A stretch of DNA of 32,474 nt from Candidatus Arcticimaribacter sp. (lineage in GTDB: Bacteria; Bacteroidota; Bacteroidia; Flavobacteriales; Flavobacteriaceae). The first letter of the stretch is position 1. Each line of letters opens with the position of its first letter. A model generated the notes under the pieces. The model was not told the DNA's origin and searched no databases. It saw only the letters and a program-made list of their open reading frames with translations. Shown one piece after another: positions 10,050 through 22,384 of the stretch. Where the stretch lies: contig WTJU01000068.1 in the NCBI GenBank assembly GCA_011526285.1, positions 1 through 32,474 on the forward strand, written 5' to 3'. Both the position numbers and the translations under genes were made by a program.

Positions 10050-10385
10050 ATGAAAAAATCCTATTATCAACCAGAAGACCTAAAAAAATTCAGTGCTATT
10101 ACAGAGTGGAATGAAACACTGGGAAAAAAGTTTTTTGACTACTACGCAGAGGTCTTTAAAGACGGTCATTTAAGTGCCCGAGAAAAGTCATTAATAGCAC
10201 TAGCAGTTTCGCATGTTGTTCAATGCCCCTATTGTATTGATGCCTACACAAAAGACGGTCTTGAAAAAGGCATTGAAAAAGAAGAAATGATGGAAGCTGT
10301 TCACGTTGGCGCAGCGATAAAAAGTGGAGCAGCACTAGTCCATGGGGTACAAATGATGAATCGTCACGACCAACTAAGCATGTAA
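10050..10385 (+). CDS. Arsenosugar biosynthesis-associated peroxidase-like protein (AhpD/carboxymuconolactone decarboxylase fold)
   Basis: SAREKSLIALAVSHVVQCPYCIDAYTKDGLEKGIEKEEMMEAVHVGAAIKSGAALVHG: CxxC AhpD-like core; directly upstream of arsS. Confidence 0.85.
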   Translation: MKKSYYQPEDLKKFSAITEWNETLGKKFFDYYAEVFKDGHLSAREKSLIALAVSHVVQCPYCIDAYTKDGLEKGIEKEEMMEAVHVGAAIKSGAALVHGVQMMNRHDQLSM

Positions 10386-10387
10386 TC

Positions 10388-11446
10388 ATGACCAAAAAAT
10401 CATTAAAAGCACGTGCAAGTAAACTATCTGACACGCAACACCAACTTGATTATTTATCAAATGGAATTTTTAAAGACGGTAGCCTCCCAACTTTCAAAGA
10501 AAAGCTAACACACTATGGGTTAGCGGAAATTCAGCCCAAAAAACTAAGCATTCTTCAAATAAATATTGGGTACATGTGCAATCAAGTTTGCGCACATTGC
10601 CACGTTGACGCTGGTCCAGATCGGAAAGAAATGATGGATCAAGTCACCTTGGAAGCTTGTCTTAAAGTAATGCGAGAAAATCAAGTTGAAACTGTTGATT
10701 TGACAGGGGGAGCCCCAGAAATGCATCCGCAATTTAGGTGGTTTGTAGCGCAAATACGTTCAACCACCACGGTAAAAGAAATAATTGTTCGCTCAAACTT
10801 GACCATAATCATGGCCAACAAAAAATACCATGATTTACCCACTTTTTTCAAGAATAATAACGTACATGTTATTTCATCACTTCCCTTTTATAAACGAAAT
10901 AAAACAGACAGACAACGAGGTTCTGGAGTGTTCGATCAATCCATTGCAGCTTTAAATAAACTTAATGAGGTAGGCTACGGAAAAAGCGATACAGCTTTAG
11001 AATTAGATCTGGTGTATAATCCATCTGGAGCCTTTTTACCTGGCGACCAAGCAGCACTTGAAAGCGATTTTAAACAAGCGCTAAAAGAAGATTTTGATAT
11101 AGATTTCAATCAATTGTTCACCATTACCAACCTACCCATTAGTCGATTTTTAGATTACCTCATCGCTTCAGAAAATTATGAAGAATACATGCACACCTTG
11201 GTAGATGCATTCAACCCTTCTGCTGCACAAAATGTTATGTGCACCAATACTCTTTCGGTAAGCTGGGAAGGTTATCTGTACGACTGTGACTTTAATCAAA
11301 TGCTAGGCCTTAAAGTTAAAGGAGGGAAAGACCACATTAGAGACTTTAATCTTGAAACCCTTCAAAAAAGAGAGATTCAGCTTTCTCAACATTGCTATGG
11401 CTGTACCGCAGGAGCGGGAAGCAGCTGTCAAGGTAGTATTGCATAA
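10388..11446 (+). CDS. arsS: Arsenosugar biosynthesis radical SAM protein ArsS
   Basis: CX3CX2C cluster motif MCNQVCAHCHVDAGPDR; VDLTGGAPEMHP; C-terminal HCYGCTAGAGSSCQG typical of the DUF3641 domain. Confidence 0.93.
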   Translation: MTKKSLKARASKLSDTQHQLDYLSNGIFKDGSLPTFKEKLTHYGLAEIQPKKLSILQINIGYMCNQVCAHCHVDAGPDRKEMMDQVTLEACLKVMRENQVETVDLTGGAPEMHPQFRWFVAQIRSTTTVKEIIVRSNLTIIMANKKYHDLPTFFKNNNVHVISSLPFYKRNKTDRQRGSGVFDQSIAALNKLNEVGYGKSDTALELDLVYNPSGAFLPGDQAALESDFKQALKEDFDIDFNQLFTITNLPISRFLDYLIASENYEEYMHTLVDAFNPSAAQNVMCTNTLSVSWEGYLYDCDFNQMLGLKVKGGKDHIRDFNLETLQKREIQLSQHCYGCTAGAGSSCQGSIA

Positions 11447-11452
11447 GTCACT

Positions 11453-12052
11453 ATGGCACAAAACCTATTACTCGTTTTTTGTAAAAATCCTCAATTAGGA
11501 AAGGTGAAAACGCGCTTGGCCAATGGTATTGGCGATAAAAATGCTTTAAAGATCTACCAAAGACTTTTAGAAAAAACAGCGGCTGTTTTAGCGCAATTAA
11601 ACTGTGATATTACAATATATTATTCACAGTCGATTATTGATGATGATGTGTTTAGCGCAACAGCCAAAGAGAAAAAAGTACAATACGGGGAAGACTTGGG
11701 AGCACGCATGGCAAATGCGTTTCAAAATGGCTTAGACACCCATGAAAAGGTAGTAATAATAGGTACAGATCTATGGACACTTGAAGCACAGGACATTGAA
11801 AAAGCGTTCGCTGCTCTGGAAAACTTTACCGCTGTACTCGGTCCGTCTCAAGACGGTGGTTACTATCTTTTAGGTTTAACTCGTTTTATCCCTGAATTAT
11901 TTCAGAAAAAAGCCTGGGGAACAGATGAAGTATTGTCAAAAACAAAAACCAATCTAAAGGCAGAAAAATTATTTTTATTGTCCGAAAAAAATGACATTGA
12001 CACCCTTGACGATTTAAAACAACATCCTGATTTAGCACTATGCATACATTAA
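11453..12052 (+). CDS. TIGR04282/DUF2064 family arsenosugar biosynthesis glycosyltransferase (nucleotidyltransferase-like fold)
   Basis: LLVFCKNPQLGKVKTRLA, GTDLWTL, VLGPSQDGGYYLLGL: characteristic DUF2064 motifs. Confidence 0.88.
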   Translation: MAQNLLLVFCKNPQLGKVKTRLANGIGDKNALKIYQRLLEKTAAVLAQLNCDITIYYSQSIIDDDVFSATAKEKKVQYGEDLGARMANAFQNGLDTHEKVVIIGTDLWTLEAQDIEKAFAALENFTAVLGPSQDGGYYLLGLTRFIPELFQKKAWGTDEVLSKTKTNLKAEKLFLLSEKNDIDTLDDLKQHPDLALCIH

Positions 12053-12864
12053 AACAACAAATAGATGAAAGTCAAGCTTTCCTGAATTCCAAAGGAATTG
12101 ATTCTATTGATTTTGGAATTATTTTAGGCACAGGCTTAGGCGATTTAGTGAACGAACTAGACGTTGAACAAGAAATTCCCTATGCTGCTATTCCTCATTT
12201 TCCCAATACGACCATGGAATTTCATCATGCTCGATTACTCTATGGGAATTTATGTGGGAAAAAAGTTTTGGTCTTTGAAGGACGTTTCCACGCCTACGAG
12301 GGTTTGAGTTATTTTCAAATAACCTACCCCATTCGCTTAATGCACAGTGTGGGAATTAAAAAAGTAATCATTAGTAATGCTGCAGGCGCAATTAACTTGA
12401 ATTTTAAAAAGGGAGAAGTAATGCTCATCGAAGACCACATTAATCTTCAAGGGGGATCGCCCTTAGCAGAAAAAGGTGTAGAGACTTTAGGCCCTCGTTT
12501 TGTAGACATGAGTGCACCTTACGCTAGCACTTTGTGCAAGCGTGTCAAAGAAATTGCTGCCAACAATGACATTACACTTCATGCGGGAGTTTATGCGGCT
12601 GTTGTTGGACCACAACTTGAAACCAAAGCAGAATATCGTTATTTGAGACAAATTGGGGCAGATGCTGTAGGAATGTCTACCGTACCAGAGGTTATTGTTG
12701 CCAATCAACTCAACATGGACTGTATCGCCTTTTCAGTGCTTACAGATGAGTGTGACCCCGCTAATTTAAAACCCATTGACATTGAAGACATCATGGCTTC
12801 TGCCAAAAAAGCGGAACAGTCTTTGATTATTTTAGTAAAAAACCTACTTTCTTCACAACAATAA
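12040..12864 (+). CDS. Purine nucleoside phosphorylase, trimeric PNP/MTAP family
   Basis: [72 protein letters not shown]; overlaps upstream gene by 13 nt. Confidence 0.93.
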   Translation: [274 protein letters not shown]

Positions 12865-12871
12865 AAAAACG

Positions 12872-13840
12872 ATGAATTACCTAGAAGTCACCAAAGATGT
12901 TTATAAAGAAGCAGCCTTAACTCCAGATGTGGGCTTGTGTTGTACCACAACTCCCATTTGGCAATTCCCAGGCTTATCCATCCCAACCATCATGCAAGAA
13001 ATGAACTACGGTTGTGGATCTACAGTTCACCCAAGAGATTTGATCAATAACCCAAAAATACTTTATGTTGGCGTAGGTGGCGGCATGGAGTTATTGCAGT
13101 TCGCTTATTTTTCCCGTCAAAAAGAAGGTGTAATTGGGGTTGATGTTGTTGACGAAATGCTTGAAGCGTCGCGTAAAAACTTTAAAGAAGCCGAAGAACA
13201 AAACGACTGGTTTCAGTCAGAATATGTCACGCTAAAAAAGGGAGATGCCTTGCAGTTGCCCGTTGAAGATGAAAGTATTGATGTTGCTGCACAAAACTGC
13301 TTATTCAATATTTTTAAAGTTGAAGAACTAAAAAAAGCACTAAAAGAGATGTATAGGGTACTTAAACCTCACGGACGTTTGGTGATGAGTGACCCCATCT
13401 GTGAGCAACCCATGAACGACACCCTTAGAGCAGATGAAAGACTTCGCGCACTTTGCCTTTCAGGTTCAATTCCGCTAAATGAATACATAAAGCTTTTAAC
13501 TGACGTTGGTTTTGGCACCATTGAAGTTCGTGCAAAACGTCCGTATCGATTACTCTCCCCTGAACATTATCCTACAAACGAACTAATTTACATTGAAAGT
13601 GTAGAGGTGTGTGCGATAAAAGACCCGATGCCTAGTGACGGTCCTTGTGTTTTTACAGGGAAGACCGCTATCTATTTTGGTAACGATGATTTTTTTGATG
13701 ATAAAAAAGGACATGTTCTACTCCAAAACCAACCTTTAGCTGTTTGCGATAAAACTGCGGCTGCTTTAGCTGAACTTAATCGAAAAGACTTATACATAAC
13801 TGGTTCTACCTATCATTATGATGGTGGTGGCTGTTGCTAA
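12872..13840 (+). CDS. arsM: Arsenosugar biosynthesis arsenite methyltransferase ArsM-like
   Basis: SAM-binding ILYVGVGGGMELLQFA, AQNCLFNIF, MYRVLKPHGRLVMSDPICEQP, RALCLSGSIPL; Cys-rich GLCC, MNYGCGS and C-terminal GGGCC; located in the arsS operon. Confidence 0.9.
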   Translation: MNYLEVTKDVYKEAALTPDVGLCCTTTPIWQFPGLSIPTIMQEMNYGCGSTVHPRDLINNPKILYVGVGGGMELLQFAYFSRQKEGVIGVDVVDEMLEASRKNFKEAEEQNDWFQSEYVTLKKGDALQLPVEDESIDVAAQNCLFNIFKVEELKKALKEMYRVLKPHGRLVMSDPICEQPMNDTLRADERLRALCLSGSIPLNEYIKLLTDVGFGTIEVRAKRPYRLLSPEHYPTNELIYIESVEVCAIKDPMPSDGPCVFTGKTAIYFGNDDFFDDKKGHVLLQNQPLAVCDKTAAALAELNRKDLYITGSTYHYDGGGCC

Positions 13841-13851
13841 ATCAATTTCCC

Positions 13852-14550
13852 ATGCGCTTACTTTTATTCCTTCTCTTACTTTGTTTTAATGGCACGTTAA
13901 CAGCTCAAAAATCTATTCACTCGCTTTGGAGCACTGCGCTCAAAGAACATGTAGATGAAGCGGGACACGTTAATTATGCTAAATGGAAAGAAGACACCAC
14001 CCTGTTAGACGATTACATTACCAGTTTAGAAGAAAATCCTCCTGCTGAGTTTTGGAGTAGAAACGATTCTCTGGCCTATTTTATTAATGCCTACAATGCG
14101 GTTACTGTTAAACTAATTCTAGATCACTATCCGTTAAAAAGCATACGAAAGTTAATAACCCCTTGGCGTTTTAAACGCTTTGAATTAGAGGGAGAAAAAA
14201 TTTCCCTCAACCATATTGAACATCAAATCTTGCGTAAAATGAATGAACCACGAATTCATTTTGCCATAAACTGTGCTTCTGCTTCGTGTCCAAAATTATT
14301 CAATACTGCTTTTTATGCGCATACTATGGAAGAACAACTTGAAGAGGCAACTACGCTATTCATAAATGACCCATTGCGCAATCAATTAAGTAAAAAAGAA
14401 ATGGCAATTTCTCGAATTTTTCAGTGGTTTGCGAGCGACTTTGGCACTAAAAAAGAGCGACATGCTTTCGTTCGGAAATACGCCACACAACCGATAGATA
14501 AAAACGCAAAAGTTCGTTTTCTGAACTATGACTGGCAACTCAACGAATAA
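13852..14550 (+). CDS. DUF547 domain-containing exported protein
   Basis: Signal peptide MRLLLFLLLLCFNGTLTAQ; VNYAKWK, YFINAYNAVTVKLIL, HFAINCASASCPKL motifs; track start at 13834 is a TTG codon, ATG at 13852 preferred. Confidence 0.85.
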   Translation: MRLLLFLLLLCFNGTLTAQKSIHSLWSTALKEHVDEAGHVNYAKWKEDTTLLDDYITSLEENPPAEFWSRNDSLAYFINAYNAVTVKLILDHYPLKSIRKLITPWRFKRFELEGEKISLNHIEHQILRKMNEPRIHFAINCASASCPKLFNTAFYAHTMEEQLEEATTLFINDPLRNQLSKKEMAISRIFQWFASDFGTKKERHAFVRKYATQPIDKNAKVRFLNYDWQLNE

Positions 14551-15238
14551 AGAAGCGATAACAATTATTATCCCATTGCTCAATGAAGAAACCTATATTG
14601 AGGGTTGCATAAAAGTCTTGAATGAACGAATAAAACGAAGCGCTACTGAAGTTTTGTTTGTAGATGGCGGAAGTAAAGATAAAAGTGTTTCCGTGATAAA
14701 AGCTTTGTCAGATTTTACCGTCCTAAACAGCAAAGCCGGACGCGCAGTTCAAATGAATATGGGAGCAAAAGCTGCGCGCAATTCTATTTTATACTTTCTT
14801 CATATTGACAGTGTTCCTCCTGTAGGGTTTGATGAAATTATAGTTGCTGCAGTCAAGAAAAAAAATCGAGTGGGTTGCTTTAAAATGAAATTCGATGCTG
14901 AACATTGGGCATTAAAACTTGCAGGATACTTTACGCGCTTCAATCATCCGTTTTGTCGAGGAGGGGATCAATCCCTATTCATTGAAAAAAAATTATTTGA
15001 CCAAATGGGAGGGTTCAATGAAGACTATCCCATTTGTGAGGACAACGAATTTACTGATAGGTTATACCGCAATGTTAAATTCAAAGTCTTAGAACATGAA
15101 CTAATAACCTCTGCACGCCGATTTAAAAAAAATGGCATTCTAAGGTTACAATTCCTGCACAGTCTTATTCACTTTTTCCGTTTTCTTGGGGTCTCGCCAA
15201 AGTATCTTCATCGCTATTACAAGCGCTTTCTACAATAG
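14528..15238 (+). CDS. TIGR04283 family arsenosugar biosynthesis glycosyltransferase (GT2)
   Basis: IIIPLLNEE, EVLFVDGGSKDKS, KAGRAVQMNMGAKAA, YFLHIDSVPP, CRGGDQSLFI; overlaps the DUF547 gene end by 23 nt. Confidence 0.88.
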   Translation: MTGNSTNKEAITIIIPLLNEETYIEGCIKVLNERIKRSATEVLFVDGGSKDKSVSVIKALSDFTVLNSKAGRAVQMNMGAKAARNSILYFLHIDSVPPVGFDEIIVAAVKKKNRVGCFKMKFDAEHWALKLAGYFTRFNHPFCRGGDQSLFIEKKLFDQMGGFNEDYPICEDNEFTDRLYRNVKFKVLEHELITSARRFKKNGILRLQFLHSLIHFFRFLGVSPKYLHRYYKRFLQ

Positions 15239-16031: not shown

Positions 16032-17330
16032 ATGTCCCCTCCTCCAATCATTATTATTGGCAATGGAATTGCTGGCACTACCTTGGCAAGACAATTGCGA
16101 AAAAGAAGCCAACAACCCATACTAATCATATCAAAAGAAAGTGATTACTTTTTTTCACGTACAGCCTTAATGTACGTGTATATGGGGCACCTAAGTTGGG
16201 ATCAATTGGAACCTTACGAACAGGGATTCTGGAAAAAAAACAAAATCGATTTACTGCGAGCAGAAATCACTAGCATTCAGCAAAATGAAAAAACGATAGT
16301 GTTGAGCAATGGCGAACGTTTGGCCTATGATCGCTTGGTTCTTGCAACGGGTTCAACACCTAACAGGTTTGGATGGAAAGGGCAGGAACTAAAAGGTGTT
16401 CAAGGCTTATACACTAAACAAGACCTAGAGCAACTTGAAGCGATGACACCAAGAATAAAACGCGCGGTAATTGTAGGTGGAGGACTCATAGGAATTGAAT
16501 TGGCAGAAATGCTTCATTCCCGCGGAATTGAAGTGACCTTTTTAGTACGTGAAAAAAATTTCTGGAATACAGTCATCTCAGCCACAGAAGGTAGCATGAT
16601 TGAACAGCATATTGTTGAACATGGCATCAATTTGAAAACCAGCACTAGTTTAGTTGAAATATGTGGAGATGAAGAAGGGAACGCAGTAGCTGTGGTTACT
16701 GATAAAGGTGAAAAAATTCCATGTGAATTTGTAGGGCTAACCGCTGGAGTACGACCAAATATTGATTTTCTTAAAGGGAGTGACTTGAACATAAATCGCG
16801 GAATTTTGGTAGATGATTTCTTACAAACCAACTTAACTGATGTGTATGCTATTGGAGATTGTGCAGAGTTACGCCAACCAAAAAGTAATCGTCGTGCCAT
16901 TGAAGCAGTGTGGTATGTTGGACGAATGATGGGAGAAACCTTAGCCCTAACCCTTAGTGGTAAAAAGACAGCCTATCAGCCTAGTCACTGGTTCAACAGT
17001 GCAAAGTTTTTCGATATTGAATATCAAACCTATGGAGTAGTCGCTCCGGAAGAGCATGAGAACGAAGCACATTTTACCTGGCAAGATCCCACAAAACTTC
17101 GCTCTGTCCGATTTTCCTATAACCCCGAGACGGAACGCTTTTTAGGCATCAATAGTTTTGGCATTCGTTTAAGACACGAACGCTTTGAAAAATGGTTGAA
17201 TGATAAGGCGAACATCAACACAGTGATCAAGCAACTTAAAGAAGCGAATTTCGATCCTGAATTTTACACACATTACGAACAAAACATCCAAAACGCATGG
17301 CAAGCACAGCACAATTTAATCAATCTCTAG
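16032..17330 (+). CDS. NAD(P)/FAD-dependent pyridine nucleotide-disulfide oxidoreductase
   Basis: IIIGNGIAGTTLARQL, VLATGSTPNRF, AVIVGGGLIGIELAEML, VYAIGDCAEL motifs. Confidence 0.92.
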   Translation: MSPPPIIIIGNGIAGTTLARQLRKRSQQPILIISKESDYFFSRTALMYVYMGHLSWDQLEPYEQGFWKKNKIDLLRAEITSIQQNEKTIVLSNGERLAYDRLVLATGSTPNRFGWKGQELKGVQGLYTKQDLEQLEAMTPRIKRAVIVGGGLIGIELAEMLHSRGIEVTFLVREKNFWNTVISATEGSMIEQHIVEHGINLKTSTSLVEICGDEEGNAVAVVTDKGEKIPCEFVGLTAGVRPNIDFLKGSDLNINRGILVDDFLQTNLTDVYAIGDCAELRQPKSNRRAIEAVWYVGRMMGETLALTLSGKKTAYQPSHWFNSAKFFDIEYQTYGVVAPEEHENEAHFTWQDPTKLRSVRFSYNPETERFLGINSFGIRLRHERFEKWLNDKANINTVIKQLKEANFDPEFYTHYEQNIQNAWQAQHNLINL

Positions 17331-18829
17331 GCAAGAATAGTGGCTTAGTGCTAGGACTGTTAGGTCTAGCCTTGTTGTTTTTCCCCTTTTTTAATGAAGA
17401 GTTTTCTCATTCGTCATTGGGCCTAATCACAAGCTTATCATTAATTACCCTAGGGACACTACTCTACTCCGATTTTCTTTACCGTGGGCAGCCAGCAGGG
17501 GTAAAAAATAACGGGGTTTGGTTTGATGGGCTCTCCTCACGTGGACTATTGGGATGGTTTGTGGCCTTGGCATTAACAGGTTTTTATATCGCATTGTATT
17601 TTTATCCTGAACGCTTAGGATACAACGCACAAGGAAACACAGCTTTGGTTGCTTTTTTTGATCCGTTGAGCAAATTATTGAATGGCAATGCAGCCACACA
17701 ATGGTTTGTCTACGGCACGCTTTACACCTTGGCCATACTTCTCTTTGGTGTAAAATTTATCTATAAATATCGCCACAATCGTTACCAAATTATACGAACG
17801 GTATCGGTTATGTTTTTCCAATTGGGCTTCGCTTTTCTAATTCCAGAATTGCTTTCCCTTTTTAATCCTGAAACCCCTTACTTCGCTAAAGATTTAAAAA
17901 ACATGTGGCCCTTAAACTACTATTTCTTTGAGTCTTGGCACCTTAAAAACATGTTGAATGGAGGGAATTTAGGGCGCTTTATGCTTTTCTCAGGAATTGC
18001 AATGATCTTCATTGTATCTCCTGTATTAACCTATTTATATGGGAAACGCTGGTATTGTTCTTGGGTGTGTGGTTGCGGTGCTTTGGCAGAAACTGCTGGG
18101 GATCCCTTTAGGCAGCTTTCCAGTAAAAAAATAAGTGTTTGGAAATTTGAGCGATGGTCTATACATGCAGTTCTCGTTTTTGTTTTTTTAACCACTATTG
18201 CAGTAATATGGTCTTTCTTGAGTAGCAATCCTAACTTGAGTAGCTTTTCGCGCGAAACTTTTGTCATTGGCGTAGTTGCTTTTCTTTTGCTACTAATGGG
18301 GCTCATTTACGTTTACAAGCGCAAGGACTTAGATAAAGATGCGCTTTACAGCTTTATATCTATTGGCCTAATAATTATTGGCACCCTCTCCATTCAGGCT
18401 TTTTCAGGAGAAAAACACATTTTATTCATTAAGAGTTATACCCTTACCAAGTGGTATGGTTTCGGAATTGGCGCGGCCTTCTCTGGTGTTCTTGGGGTAG
18501 GATTCTATCCGCTACTAGGAAGTCGTGTGTGGTGTCGCTTTGGTTGTCCAATGGCGGCAATTTTAGGACTGCAACAGCGTTTACTCTCACGTTTTCGCAT
18601 TACCACCAACGGAGGGCAGTGCATTTCTTGTGGGAACTGTTCTGCTTATTGCGAAATGGGAATAGATGTTCGCGCCTATGCACAAAAAGGACAAAACATT
18701 GTCCGTTCTTCTTGCGTTGGTTGTGGCATCTGTTCTGCCGTATGTCCACGGGGAGTACTAAAGCTCGAAAATGGAAGTGTAAACCAACGTACAAATCTTC
18801 CTGAATTTCCACTTGGGAATAGTCTCTAA
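17297..18829 (+). CDS. NapH/NosR-like membrane Fe-S protein with C-terminal 2x[4Fe-4S] ferredoxin domain
   Basis: Multiple hydrophobic helices; WYCSWVCGCGALAE, VWCRFGCPMAAILG; CISCGNCSAYCEMGIDV and CVGCGICSAVCPRGVL ferredoxin motifs; overlaps upstream FAD gene by 34 nt. Confidence 0.9.
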   Translation: MASTAQFNQSLGKNSGLVLGLLGLALLFFPFFNEEFSHSSLGLITSLSLITLGTLLYSDFLYRGQPAGVKNNGVWFDGLSSRGLLGWFVALALTGFYIALYFYPERLGYNAQGNTALVAFFDPLSKLLNGNAATQWFVYGTLYTLAILLFGVKFIYKYRHNRYQIIRTVSVMFFQLGFAFLIPELLSLFNPETPYFAKDLKNMWPLNYYFFESWHLKNMLNGGNLGRFMLFSGIAMIFIVSPVLTYLYGKRWYCSWVCGCGALAETAGDPFRQLSSKKISVWKFERWSIHAVLVFVFLTTIAVIWSFLSSNPNLSSFSRETFVIGVVAFLLLLMGLIYVYKRKDLDKDALYSFISIGLIIIGTLSIQAFSGEKHILFIKSYTLTKWYGFGIGAAFSGVLGVGFYPLLGSRVWCRFGCPMAAILGLQQRLLSRFRITTNGGQCISCGNCSAYCEMGIDVRAYAQKGQNIVRSSCVGCGICSAVCPRGVLKLENGSVNQRTNLPEFPLGNSL

Positions 18830-18859: not shown

Positions 18860-19546
18860 ATGACCCGCATCAGTGTTGTCATTCCTGCTTATAATGAAGA
18901 AAATGCTATCGCTAATGTCATTGCAGAGATACCCACTATTGTTAACGAAATAGTGGTTGTGAATAACAATTCAACTGATGCTACAGTTGCGGTAGCACAA
19001 GCCGCAGGTGCAACTGTTTTAACCGAAAACAACAAAGGATATGGTTATGCTTGCCTCAAAGGTCTTGCCTACCTTAAGGCAGGAAATACCCCAGACATTG
19101 TAGTATTTCTCGATGGCGATTATTCTGATTTTCCAAAAGAATTAAATCTCTTAGTGCAACCCATAATCGACAATAAAGTGGACTTTGTGGTGGGAGCACG
19201 TGTAAAAGAAAAACGAGAAGAAGGGTCGTTAACACCACAACAAATTTTTGGAAATTGGCTAGCGTGTTATTTAATGCGTTTATTGTTTAAATCAGAGTTT
19301 ACAGATTTAGGTCCTTTTCGTGCCATTCGGTGGGAAACACTTGAAGCACTAGAAATGGGAGATAAAACCTATGGCTGGACAGTAGAAATGCAACTTAAGG
19401 CGCTACGGCAAAAAATTCCGTATCAAGAAATCCCTGTATCTTATAAGAAAAGAATTGGCGTTTCTAAGGTATCAGGTACAGTAAAAGGAACTATATTTGC
19501 AGGAGCAAAAATTATTGGGTGGATTTTCAAGCATTATTTATCCTAA
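18860..19546 (+). CDS. Glycosyltransferase family 2 (polyprenyl-phosphate sugar synthase-like)
   Basis: RISVVIPAYNEENAIANVI, IVVVNNNSTDAT, NKGYGYACLKGL, VVFLDGDYSDFPKEL. Confidence 0.85.
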   Translation: MTRISVVIPAYNEENAIANVIAEIPTIVNEIVVVNNNSTDATVAVAQAAGATVLTENNKGYGYACLKGLAYLKAGNTPDIVVFLDGDYSDFPKELNLLVQPIIDNKVDFVVGARVKEKREEGSLTPQQIFGNWLACYLMRLLFKSEFTDLGPFRAIRWETLEALEMGDKTYGWTVEMQLKALRQKIPYQEIPVSYKKRIGVSKVSGTVKGTIFAGAKIIGWIFKHYLS

Positions 19547-19556
19547 AGCGACAATT

Positions 19557-21059
19557 ATGGAACACTTTTGGCTAAACATTTCCTTCCTCGTGATGGGATT
19601 GTACGCCCTTTCCTTATTACTTGTCTTTTTCTACAGTTTGGCGCAACTCCATTTGCTATTCAACTACAAAAAAGCACAAAAAAATAAACCTGAACTTACG
19701 CCATTAGCTACTTCAGACCTAGCTAAAGTTCCCTATGTTACCATACAACTACCCGTCTTTAACGAACTTTATGTTATGGAGCGATTGCTTCATTGCATTA
19801 ATGAAATTGAATACCCAAGAGAACGACTTGAAGTTCAGGTGCTTGATGATTCTACTGACGAATCGGTTGAGCTCACACAATCTTTAGTGGCCAAGCTACA
19901 AAAAGGCGGTTTGGACATTGTTCAAATTCGTCGTAAAGACCGCGTTGGTTTCAAAGCAGGTGCATTAAAAGAAGGACTAAAAACTGCAAAAGGAGAATTC
20001 ATTGCCATTTTTGATGCCGATTTTCTTCCTCGACCAGATTGGTTACTTAAAACAGTACCCCACTTTGACAGCCCAGAAATTGGTGTGGTTCAAACCCGTT
20101 GGGAACACCTTAACCACGACTACTCTGTCTTAACCAAGGTACAAGCCTTTGCCCTAGATGCGCACTTTACCCTAGAACAAGTGGGGAGAAATAGCGAAGG
20201 ACACTTTATTAATTTTAATGGTACCGCAGGTATTTGGCGCAAAGAAACCATAATCGATGCAGGAAACTGGGAGGGAGATACGTTAACCGAAGATCTTGAC
20301 TTAAGTTACCGTGCACAACTAAAAAATTGGAAGTTCAAATATTTAGAAGATGTACATACACCTTCAGAACTTCCTGTGGTAATGAGTGCGATCAGATCGC
20401 AGCAATTTCGCTGGAATAAAGGCGGAGCAGAGAACTACCAAAAAATGATAAAACGTGTTATGGGAAAAGAAGGACTACCCCTTGCAACTCGTTTTCATTC
20501 TGTTCTTCATTTATTAAACAGCACTATGTTTTTGAATGTATTAGTGGTTGGTTTCTTAAGTATCCCAATGTTATACATCAAAAATGAATGGGGACATTTG
20601 GCCTGGTTTTTTAAAGTATCTTCTCTTTTTATTGTTAGCACAATGATCTTTTTCTACTGCTACTGGGAGTTGTATCGCCGACAATACGGTAGTGGTATCG
20701 TTCAGTTTTTTGAATACACCCGTACTTTTTTTACTTTTTATACCGTTGCTATGGGCTTCTCTTTCCACAATGCACTAGCAGTGTTAGAAGGTCATCGCGG
20801 GAAAAGAAGTGAATTTGTACGCACCCCAAAGTTCAATATCCAAACGCTTAAAGATTCTTGGAAAAACAACAAATACATTCCAAAAAAAGTACATAAAAAC
20901 ACCATAGTAGAAGGATTGCTGTCCCTGTACTTCCTATTTGGCATGTACAGTGCATTTGTGGTTGGTAAAGAAGGAGACTTTGGTTTATTCCCTTTTCATC
21001 TTCTTCTATTCCTTGGCTTCGGCTTTATCTTTGTGAGTTCGTTTAGAACCCAAGGATAA
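19557..21059 (+). CDS. Processive GT2 glycosyltransferase (cellulose synthase/CslA-like)
   Basis: VTIQLPVFNE, VQVLDDSTDES, FIAIFDADFLPRPDWL, LTEDLDLSYRAQLKNWKFKYLED, QQFRWNKGGAEN (D,D,D,QxxRW); several C-terminal TM helices; start at internal Met 19557. Confidence 0.88.
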   Translation: MEHFWLNISFLVMGLYALSLLLVFFYSLAQLHLLFNYKKAQKNKPELTPLATSDLAKVPYVTIQLPVFNELYVMERLLHCINEIEYPRERLEVQVLDDSTDESVELTQSLVAKLQKGGLDIVQIRRKDRVGFKAGALKEGLKTAKGEFIAIFDADFLPRPDWLLKTVPHFDSPEIGVVQTRWEHLNHDYSVLTKVQAFALDAHFTLEQVGRNSEGHFINFNGTAGIWRKETIIDAGNWEGDTLTEDLDLSYRAQLKNWKFKYLEDVHTPSELPVVMSAIRSQQFRWNKGGAENYQKMIKRVMGKEGLPLATRFHSVLHLLNSTMFLNVLVVGFLSIPMLYIKNEWGHLAWFFKVSSLFIVSTMIFFYCYWELYRRQYGSGIVQFFEYTRTFFTFYTVAMGFSFHNALAVLEGHRGKRSEFVRTPKFNIQTLKDSWKNNKYIPKKVHKNTIVEGLLSLYFLFGMYSAFVVGKEGDFGLFPFHLLLFLGFGFIFVSSFRTQG

Positions 21060-22384
21060 TGTTCAAGCAGCTATTTTCATTGCGTAGCCTTTTTCTCATT
21101 TTACCCATTTCCATTTGTTATTGGCTTTTAGCCCATACCCCTCGTGAGAATAGTAGTACTTTATTACTGTTCTTCTTTAGCAGCTGCCTATTGAGTTATT
21201 TCTCATTCAAGCAAAGCTCTGTTAATCAAATCTTTTTACAGGGATTGTTTTTTCGCTTCCTATTTATTGGAATCGTACCATGGCTCTCGCAAGATTTTTT
21301 CCGCTTTATATGGGATGGTTTATTGCTCTATAATCACATCAATCCTTACGCATATACCCCAGATATGTTAATGGGAATGGATATTCTATTTTCAACTGAA
21401 TTGAAGGAGGAACTATGGCGTGGTATGGGAACCTTAAGCGCAGGGCATTTTTCTAACTACCCACCCATAAATCAAATGGGCTTTTTATTTTCTGTCGCTT
21501 GGTTTCCCGAGCAGTTAGTTACTTCTATTATTGCGATGCGGCTTTTACTAATCGCTGCTGACGTAGGTGTGTTTTTAATTGGAAAACAATTATTATCCCA
21601 TTGGCAATTGCCCGAAAAAAGAATTGGTTGGTATTTCCTTAATCCTTTGGTGATCGTTGAGTTAACGGGAAATCTGCATTGGGAAGGAGTTTTACTTTTC
21701 TTCTTTGCGCTGGGGAGCTGGTGGTATGTAAAGCAAAAACACACACTAGCAGCTTTTGCATTTGCCCTGTCGGTTGCAACAAAACTTATTCCCCTTCTTA
21801 TTCTTCCTGTTTTTGCTCGTTTTCAATCCTTGAAAAAAACAGCACTAATGGTAGCCGTTGGCAGTGGGGTTTTATGCCTTCTTTTTTTACCTTTTTTCTG
21901 GTCTGTAGGGGTAGAAAACTACATGGCGACAATTCGTTTATGGTTCAAAAATTTTGAGTTTAACGGGAGCTTTTATTACATCATCCGCTGGATTGGATAT
22001 GAACTAAAAGGCTACAATATCATTCGTCAATGGGGTGAATTTTCTCCTTATTTAATTGTCTCACTTATCGCTTTTTTTAGCTTTTGGTCAAAGAAAACAA
22101 ACTATCAACAGCTATTTAATGGAATGTTGTTACTCTTGAGTTGCTATTACTTTATGTCCTCAATTGTGCACCCGTGGTATGTTGTCCCACTTGTTTTTTT
22201 AAGCTTGTTTAGTTCTTATAGCTATGCTGTGATTTGGAGTGTCTTGGTTTTCGTGAGCTATGTAACCTACGCCCACCCAAGTTTTCAAGAGAATTTTATT
22301 TTGATTGGGCTAGAATATGGTCTAGTACTGTCTGTCTTATTTTATGAATTAAATAAAGGACGCCCCTTACTTAAGCATTTTTAA
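21059..22384 (+). CDS. GT-C type mannosyltransferase-like membrane glycosyltransferase
   Basis: Multi-helix membrane protein; SQDFFRFIWDGLLLYNHINPYAYTP loop and LVIVELTGNLHWEGVLLFFFALG typical of lipid-linked-sugar-dependent GTs. Confidence 0.7.
   Translation: MFKQLFSLRSLFLILPISICYWLLAHTPRENSSTLLLFFFSSCLLSYFSFKQSSVNQIFLQGLFFRFLFIGIVPWLSQDFFRFIWDGLLLYNHINPYAYTPDMLMGMDILFSTELKEELWRGMGTLSAGHFSNYPPINQMGFLFSVAWFPEQLVTSIIAMRLLLIAADVGVFLIGKQLLSHWQLPEKRIGWYFLNPLVIVELTGNLHWEGVLLFFFALGSWWYVKQKHTLAAFAFALSVATKLIPLLILPVFARFQSLKKTALMVAVGSGVLCLLFLPFFWSVGVENYMATIRLWFKNFEFNGSFYYIIRWIGYELKGYNIIRQWGEFSPYLIVSLIAFFSFWSKKTNYQQLFNGMLLLLSCYYFMSSIVHPWYVVPLVFLSLFSSYSYAVIWSVLVFVSYVTYAHPSFQENFILIGLEYGLVLSVLFYELNKGRPLLKHF

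Follow-up and report, generated by a model that had tools for sequence, protein, structure and literature searches.

Contig WTJU01000068.1 of the Candidatus Arcticimaribacter sp. assembly GCA_011526285.1 (Flavobacteriaceae), a stretch of 32,474 nucleotides referred to here as the window, carries seven open reading frames (ORFs) on the plus strand between positions 10050 and 15238. Judged by its family matches, this seven-gene unit is an operon of the established arsenosugar type. Residues, motifs and gene order make it fairly probable that the operon encodes an arsenosugar pathway running from ArsM to ArsS, then through a purine nucleoside phosphorylase (PNP), the TIGR04282 protein and the TIGR04283 glycosyltransferase (GT), with an AhpD-like protein and a downstream flavoprotein/NapH-like pair (genes f and n) in supporting roles. 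The first arsenosugar steps were already known: according to PMC8552651 and PMC12159101, ArsM methylates arsenic and ArsS, including the cyanobacterial enzyme, then 5'-deoxyadenosylates dimethylarsenic. A literature search for PNP, nucleotidyltransferases or the TIGR families together with arsenosugars returned no pathway paper assigning the steps after ArsS; key subscription papers lay outside that search, and priority is not judged here. The points of interest are the split of the cluster into two modules, the retention of one of them independently of ArsS, and the reassignment of TIGR04282.

ORF calling places the genes at intervals of 2, 6, -13, 7, 11 and -23 nt (Table 1), in exact agreement with the seven co-directional genes of an initial annotation made from the sequence alone. 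The family names proposed there also held: six of the seven proteins exceed NCBIfam cut-offs, DUF547 passes its Pfam gathering score, and searches with the hidden Markov models (HMMs) for TIGR04167, TIGR04282, TIGR04283 and DUF547 each gave a match above threshold. Five of the seven proteins match NCBIfam models that carry an arsenosugar name (TIGR04169, TIGR04167, TIGR04282, NF038099 and TIGR04283), all above cut-off, whereas PNP, DUF547 and the f-n pair bear no such name. Upstream of the operon, a scan for the Bacteroidota promoter consensus found no match, and sigma-70 promoters and terminators were predicted no more often than in shuffled sequence.

The same genes cluster in many relatives. 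A survey of 396 genomes from across the phylum found ArsS in 157, with the nearest loci in Flavobacteriaceae and other Flavobacteriales. When 120 ArsS loci were scanned with HMMs built from this analysis, AhpD was found in 107, TIGR04282 in 97, PNP in 75, ArsM in 62, a rhodanese in 59, DUF547 in 50 and the TIGR04283 GT in 44. By chance, a given 20-kb stretch of a 3-4 Mb genome would contain a particular single-copy gene less than 1% of the time, so this clustering is not accidental. The typical order is AhpD-ArsS-(rhodanese)-TIGR04282-PNP-ArsM-DUF547-GT, and the window operon differs from it in having no rhodanese. The rhodanese (NCBIfam NF045521, with a signal-like N-terminus) occurs in locus L042 (12378-12887) and 58 other ArsS loci, mostly directly upstream of TIGR04282.

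Co-occurrence was assessed in 121 genomes of the family, nearly all from different genera. ArsS was found in 94 of these, ArsM in 74, a PNP of the subtype seen in the window (D/I type, described below) in 104, the GT in 87 and the NapH-like protein in 93. Every genome with ArsM also had ArsS (74/74), and the D/I-type PNP was present in 93 of 94 genomes with ArsS compared with 11 of 27 without it (Fisher p 6e-12; the p-values ignore phylogeny). Among the 86 genomes with both PNP and the GT, the two genes lay within 10 kb of each other in 83. TIGR04282 was directly upstream of PNP in 76 of 92 cases, and ArsM was directly downstream in 53.

The assignments of ArsM and ArsS are supported: both proteins exceed curated cut-offs and keep their key cysteines. 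In ArsS, the radical S-adenosylmethionine motif CxxxCxxC (C64/C68/C71) and three C-terminal cysteines (C336/C339/C347) form invariant columns among 14 homologues, and the enzyme is expected to place the 5'-deoxyadenosyl group on dimethylarsenic. C48, C143 and C195 of ArsM align with the As(III)-binding cysteines of the solved ArsM structure 4kw7 and are invariant in 60-61 of 61 homologues; its GGGCC tail is also invariant. The AhpD-like protein retains H55, C59 and C62 (C59-P-Y-C62) in all 112 homologues and is a probable thiol redox partner, or reductant, for the arsenic steps. A functional tie between ArsM and AhpD is supported by an ArsM-AhpD fusion family listed by NCBI.

The window PNP is, from its sequence, a PNP and not a methylthioadenosine phosphorylase (MTAP), scoring 83 bits against an MTAP equivalog cut-off of 275, although it has MTAP-like residues at two specificity positions. 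In human numbering its subtype is L200/E201/D243/I257, with N243 and H257 of the human enzyme replaced by D and I; L200, E201, D243 and I, V or L at 257 are present in all 74 complete linked PNPs. D243 favors 6-aminopurines, and loss of H257 removes a contact to the 5'-hydroxyl, as in MTA phosphorylase. These residues would suit 6-aminopurine nucleosides substituted at the 5' position, such as a 5'-arsenic adenosine, in a manner that is permissive and not diagnostic. D243 with a hydrophobic residue at 257 was considered as a mark unique to arsenosugar PNPs and rejected, as the same subtype appears in unlinked and lone PNPs of the control set; for that reason the two residues support substrate plausibility but not specificity.

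TIGR04282 passes its family model (200 bits, cut-off 134), yet its motifs (KNPQLGKVKTRL, DGGYYLLG and NDIDTLDDL) are of the CofC/MobA nucleotidyltransferase type. It also weakly matches the NCBIfam and Pfam models of CofC. It thus resembles F420 CofC and MobA-type nucleotidyltransferases in sequence and motifs, and differs from CofC in scoring 41 bits against an equivalog cut-off of 105. A solved relative, 3cgx, was deposited as a putative nucleotide-diphospho-sugar transferase; a match to the repeat protein 3ugm in the PDB was dismissed as a spurious repeat match. The K[TS]RL motif is kept in 72 of 76 TIGR04282 copies that adjoin PNP and in just 17 of 47 that adjoin neither PNP nor the GT. 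TIGR04282 is therefore a probable CofC/MobA-like nucleotidyltransferase that would activate a sugar 1-phosphate, and the NCBI name "glycosyltransferase" is probably wrong, since CofC-type motifs are so consistently kept beside PNP. The family named in the initial annotation is supported, and the signature suits the sugar activation proposed there for the operon, but the description of the protein as GT-like probably does not fit.

The TIGR04283 protein has a confident predicted model (predicted local distance difference test, pLDDT, 94.4) whose fold search matches family-2 glycosyltransferase (GT2) structures with the GT-A fold, and it is expected to transfer an activated sugar to some acceptor. 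DUF547 has a hydrophobic, signal-peptide-like N-terminus in the window and in 61 of 69 homologues; it is probably exported and therefore unlikely to belong to a cytosolic chain. Its predicted model is equally confident (pLDDT 94.7), and a fold search of this model against the PDB gave no match (best E 0.76). A known hydrolase or protease fold was considered for DUF547 and rejected, there being neither a PDB fold match nor a sequence match. One locus (L083, 16473-20435) carries four DUF547 genes in tandem. L063 (12760-13644) and about 22 further loci have an inserted gene for a sterol-desaturase/OlsE-like membrane hydroxylase, located after PNP or ArsM and before DUF547, which hints that the acceptor might be a lipid.

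In the pathway that we propose, ArsM would convert arsenite to dimethylarsenic and ArsS would attach the 5'-deoxyadenosyl group to it, steps established in relatives and read here from family membership. PNP would then release adenine from the 5'-arsenic-substituted adenosine, leaving 5-deoxy-5-dimethylarsinoyl-alpha-D-ribose 1-phosphate; TIGR04282 would add a nucleotidyl group to this arsenic-bearing ribose 1-phosphate; and the TIGR04283 GT2 would transfer the sugar with inversion to an acceptor, giving a beta-riboside. AhpD would probably act as a thiol reductant and the f-n pair would probably supply electrons to the same pathway. Phosphorolysis by PNP yields alpha-ribose 1-phosphate, nucleotidyl transfer retains the alpha configuration and GT2 enzymes invert it, and natural arsenosugars are beta-ribofuranosides. 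The sequence of PNP, nucleotidyltransferase and inverting GT2 is coherent because the alpha-1-phosphate would be retained and then inverted to a beta-riboside. The suggestion that the remaining operon genes carry out the steps after ArsS is thereby upheld in part: the signatures of PNP, TIGR04282 and TIGR04283 suit adenine removal, sugar activation and transfer, but DUF547 would act outside the cytoplasm.

The cluster divides into two separable modules, AhpD-ArsS and TIGR04282-PNP-GT. Of 17 genomes in which ArsS is distant from PNP, 16 still have PNP no more than 10 kb away from ArsM or the GT, which speaks for the proposed pathway; the ArsS loci of such split genomes (L249-L251) contain (TIGR04282-like)-AhpD-ArsS only. 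Several observations weigh against the proposed pathway. Five genera (G182, G410, G427, G481 and G502, with listed completeness of 99-100%) carry rhodanese-TIGR04282-PNP-(DUF547)-GT with neither ArsS nor an arsenosugar ArsM. The arsenosugar-type ArsM is absent from 20 of the 94 ArsS genomes (G400, G406, G407, G418, G428, G434 and 14 others), and PNP is missing nearby in some ArsS loci of the same phylum outside the class (L144-L149). The PNP subtype of the window recurs in unlinked Bacteroidota PNPs and in lone PNP genes of genomes without ArsS (L252-L255), and the window PNP is the sole PNP_UDP_1 (PF01048) protein found in a source genome that is 85% complete. The minimal loci L144-L149 consist of AhpD-ArsS-TIGR04282-TIGR04283, with neither PNP nor ArsM nearby.

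Since the TIGR04282-PNP-GT module is intact in five genera that lack ArsS and ArsM, it probably also has an arsenic-independent role, and its presence is no proof of arsenic chemistry. It may serve non-arsenic nucleosides as well. A tentative extension, possible though short of probable, is that TIGR04282-PNP-TIGR04283 is a general nucleoside-to-glycoside route, under selection without the arsenic enzymes, which cleaves 5'-modified adenosines by phosphorolysis, converts the sugar 1-phosphate to an activated nucleoside diphosphate-ribofuranose and transfers the sugar, and that arsenosugars arise when ArsM and ArsS feed in an arsenic-bearing adenosine. A stronger alternative, which we regard as rather unlikely, holds that the module, with rhodanese, DUF547 and the f-n pair, makes a ribosyl conjugate unrelated to arsenic from plain or 5'-modified purine nucleosides such as 5'-deoxyadenosine or methylthioadenosine, the ArsM-ArsS pair merely supplying an arsenic analogue. 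In its favor, four of the five ArsS-less genera have the f-n pair on the same contig, and all five retain the nucleotidyltransferase motif, the two tested GT motifs and the PNP residues. The ratio of nonsynonymous to synonymous change (pN/pS) of TIGR04282, PNP and the GT is not raised relative to ArsS-bearing relatives, a rough check only, as synonymous sites are saturated; at similarly saturated sites, the NapH-like gene has a higher pN/pS in the ArsS-less set. A tree of TIGR04282, PNP and GT indicates one separation from ArsS followed by loss of ArsS at least twice, counting the starred branches, and five times in the best tree. Against this alternative, such losses could be recent; many genomes have ArsM placed between PNP and the GT, co-occurrence with ArsS is very strong, and the link of both TIGR04282 and the GT to ArsS extends to other classes of the phylum. 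The "complete" pathway suggested by the initial annotation is not established: the window operon lacks the rhodanese of about half of the loci, and genes of its second half are also found in genomes that have neither ArsS nor ArsM.

As no other PNP_UDP_1 protein was found in the genome, PNP may simply or also perform purine salvage. That it is nothing more than an ordinary adenine-recycling enzyme, co-transcribed for convenience while another enzyme handles the ArsS product, is improbable: its subtype is indeed common to lone genes and unlinked Bacteroidota PNPs, but in most loci PNP is flanked immediately by TIGR04282 on one side and ArsM on the other, and it remains near ArsM or the GT where ArsS is elsewhere. 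It is very improbable that ArsM and ArsS only dispose of arsenic beside an unrelated envelope-glycan operon, for although DUF547 is probably exported and polysaccharide-type GTs follow (g, c and m), the interdigitated, overlapping gene order is conserved over many loci and the operon contains curated arsenosugar families.

Beyond 15238, the flavoprotein/NapH-like pair (16032-18829) is part of an extended cluster, because it both co-occurs and co-locates with PNP: the NapH-like gene is always accompanied by a D/I-type PNP (93/93 genomes), which in 83 genomes is no more than 20 kb away. The unit thus does not stop at 15238, and the stand-alone character that the initial annotation considered possible is not established. 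Two minus-strand ORFs precede the pair, which is therefore a separate transcription unit. The genes that follow, g, c and m (18860-22384), are loosely linked to the cluster and their membership is uncertain.

Table 1. Genes of the arsenosugar-type operon and of the region downstream, with family scores or occurrence in related genomes
Feature	Position	Strand	Family score or remark
AhpD-like protein, TIGR04169	10050-10385	+	NCBIfam 186 bits (cut-off 120)
ArsS radical SAM, TIGR04167	10388-11446	+	NCBIfam 445 bits (cut-off 300)
TIGR04282 / DUF2064	11453-12052	+	NCBIfam 200 bits (cut-off 134)
PNP, NF006054	12040-12864	+	NCBIfam 314 bits (cut-off 218)
ArsM, NF038099 AsSugarArsM	12872-13840	+	NCBIfam 578 bits (cut-off 400)
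DUF547	13852-14550 (ATG start; TTG at 13834 alternative)	+	Pfam 93 bits (cut-off 27)
TIGR04283 GT2	14528-15238	+	NCBIfam 228 bits (cut-off 182)
f, FAD/NAD(P)-dependent oxidoreductase	16032-17330	+	adjoins n gene in related loci
n, NapH/MauN-like membrane ferredoxin-type protein	17297-18829	+	only in genomes with D/I-type PNP
g, GT2	18860-19546	+	in 17/120 ArsS loci
c, cellulose-synthase-like GT2	~19563-21059	+	in 16/120 ArsS loci
m, membrane protein	21059-22384	+	in 7/120 ArsS loci

The source genome is a 1.98-Mb draft in 136 contigs with a single ArsS. Genome-wide questions were addressed by family searches, and because about 15% of the genome is missing, absences should be read with caution. 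No ArsR, ArsC, Acr3 or ArsB was recognized in or beside the operon, which is accordingly not a classical ars resistance operon. Elsewhere, on contig C62, the genome does encode a glutaredoxin-type arsenate reductase (110.9 bits, cut-off 106). A search of the genome for the Acr3 family gave no match above cut-off; ArsR and ArsB were not searched genome-wide.

As with the Synechocystis ArsM-ArsS system (Xue et al. 2019, as cited in PMC8552651), both first-step activities are expected here and the ArsS family is common to the two, but the window unites them with PNP, TIGR04282, TIGR04283 and a predicted-exported DUF547 in one operon. The arsQML arsinothricin cluster (PMC8552651) likewise combines a methyltransferase with a radical SAM enzyme working on arsenic. 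There, however, ArsL transfers a 3-amino-3-carboxypropyl group, and the window ArsM scores only 95 bits against a cut-off of 500 on the arsinothricin ArsM model.

Together, the operon, its synteny across many genera of Flavobacteriia and the residue and motif evidence point to specific genes, in a defined order, as candidates for removing adenine, activating the sugar and transferring it, which makes the missing half of bacterial arsenosugar synthesis testable gene by gene. Retention of the module without ArsS and ArsM suggests that families annotated as "arsenosugar" serve another use too; if so, many database annotations are over-specific. DUF547, with a confident predicted model and no solved structure of similar fold, is a structural target.

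Some 18 ArsS loci (L100, 11285-19949; L068, L069, L072, L074, L101 and L134 among them) also encode a sodium/solute symporter and a YfcE-like metallophosphoesterase along with a SusC/SusD-like pair; in most cases a TIGR04282-like paralogue without the KTRL motif lies next to them. These genes possibly form a cassette that takes up arsenosugars or other glycosyl phosphates.

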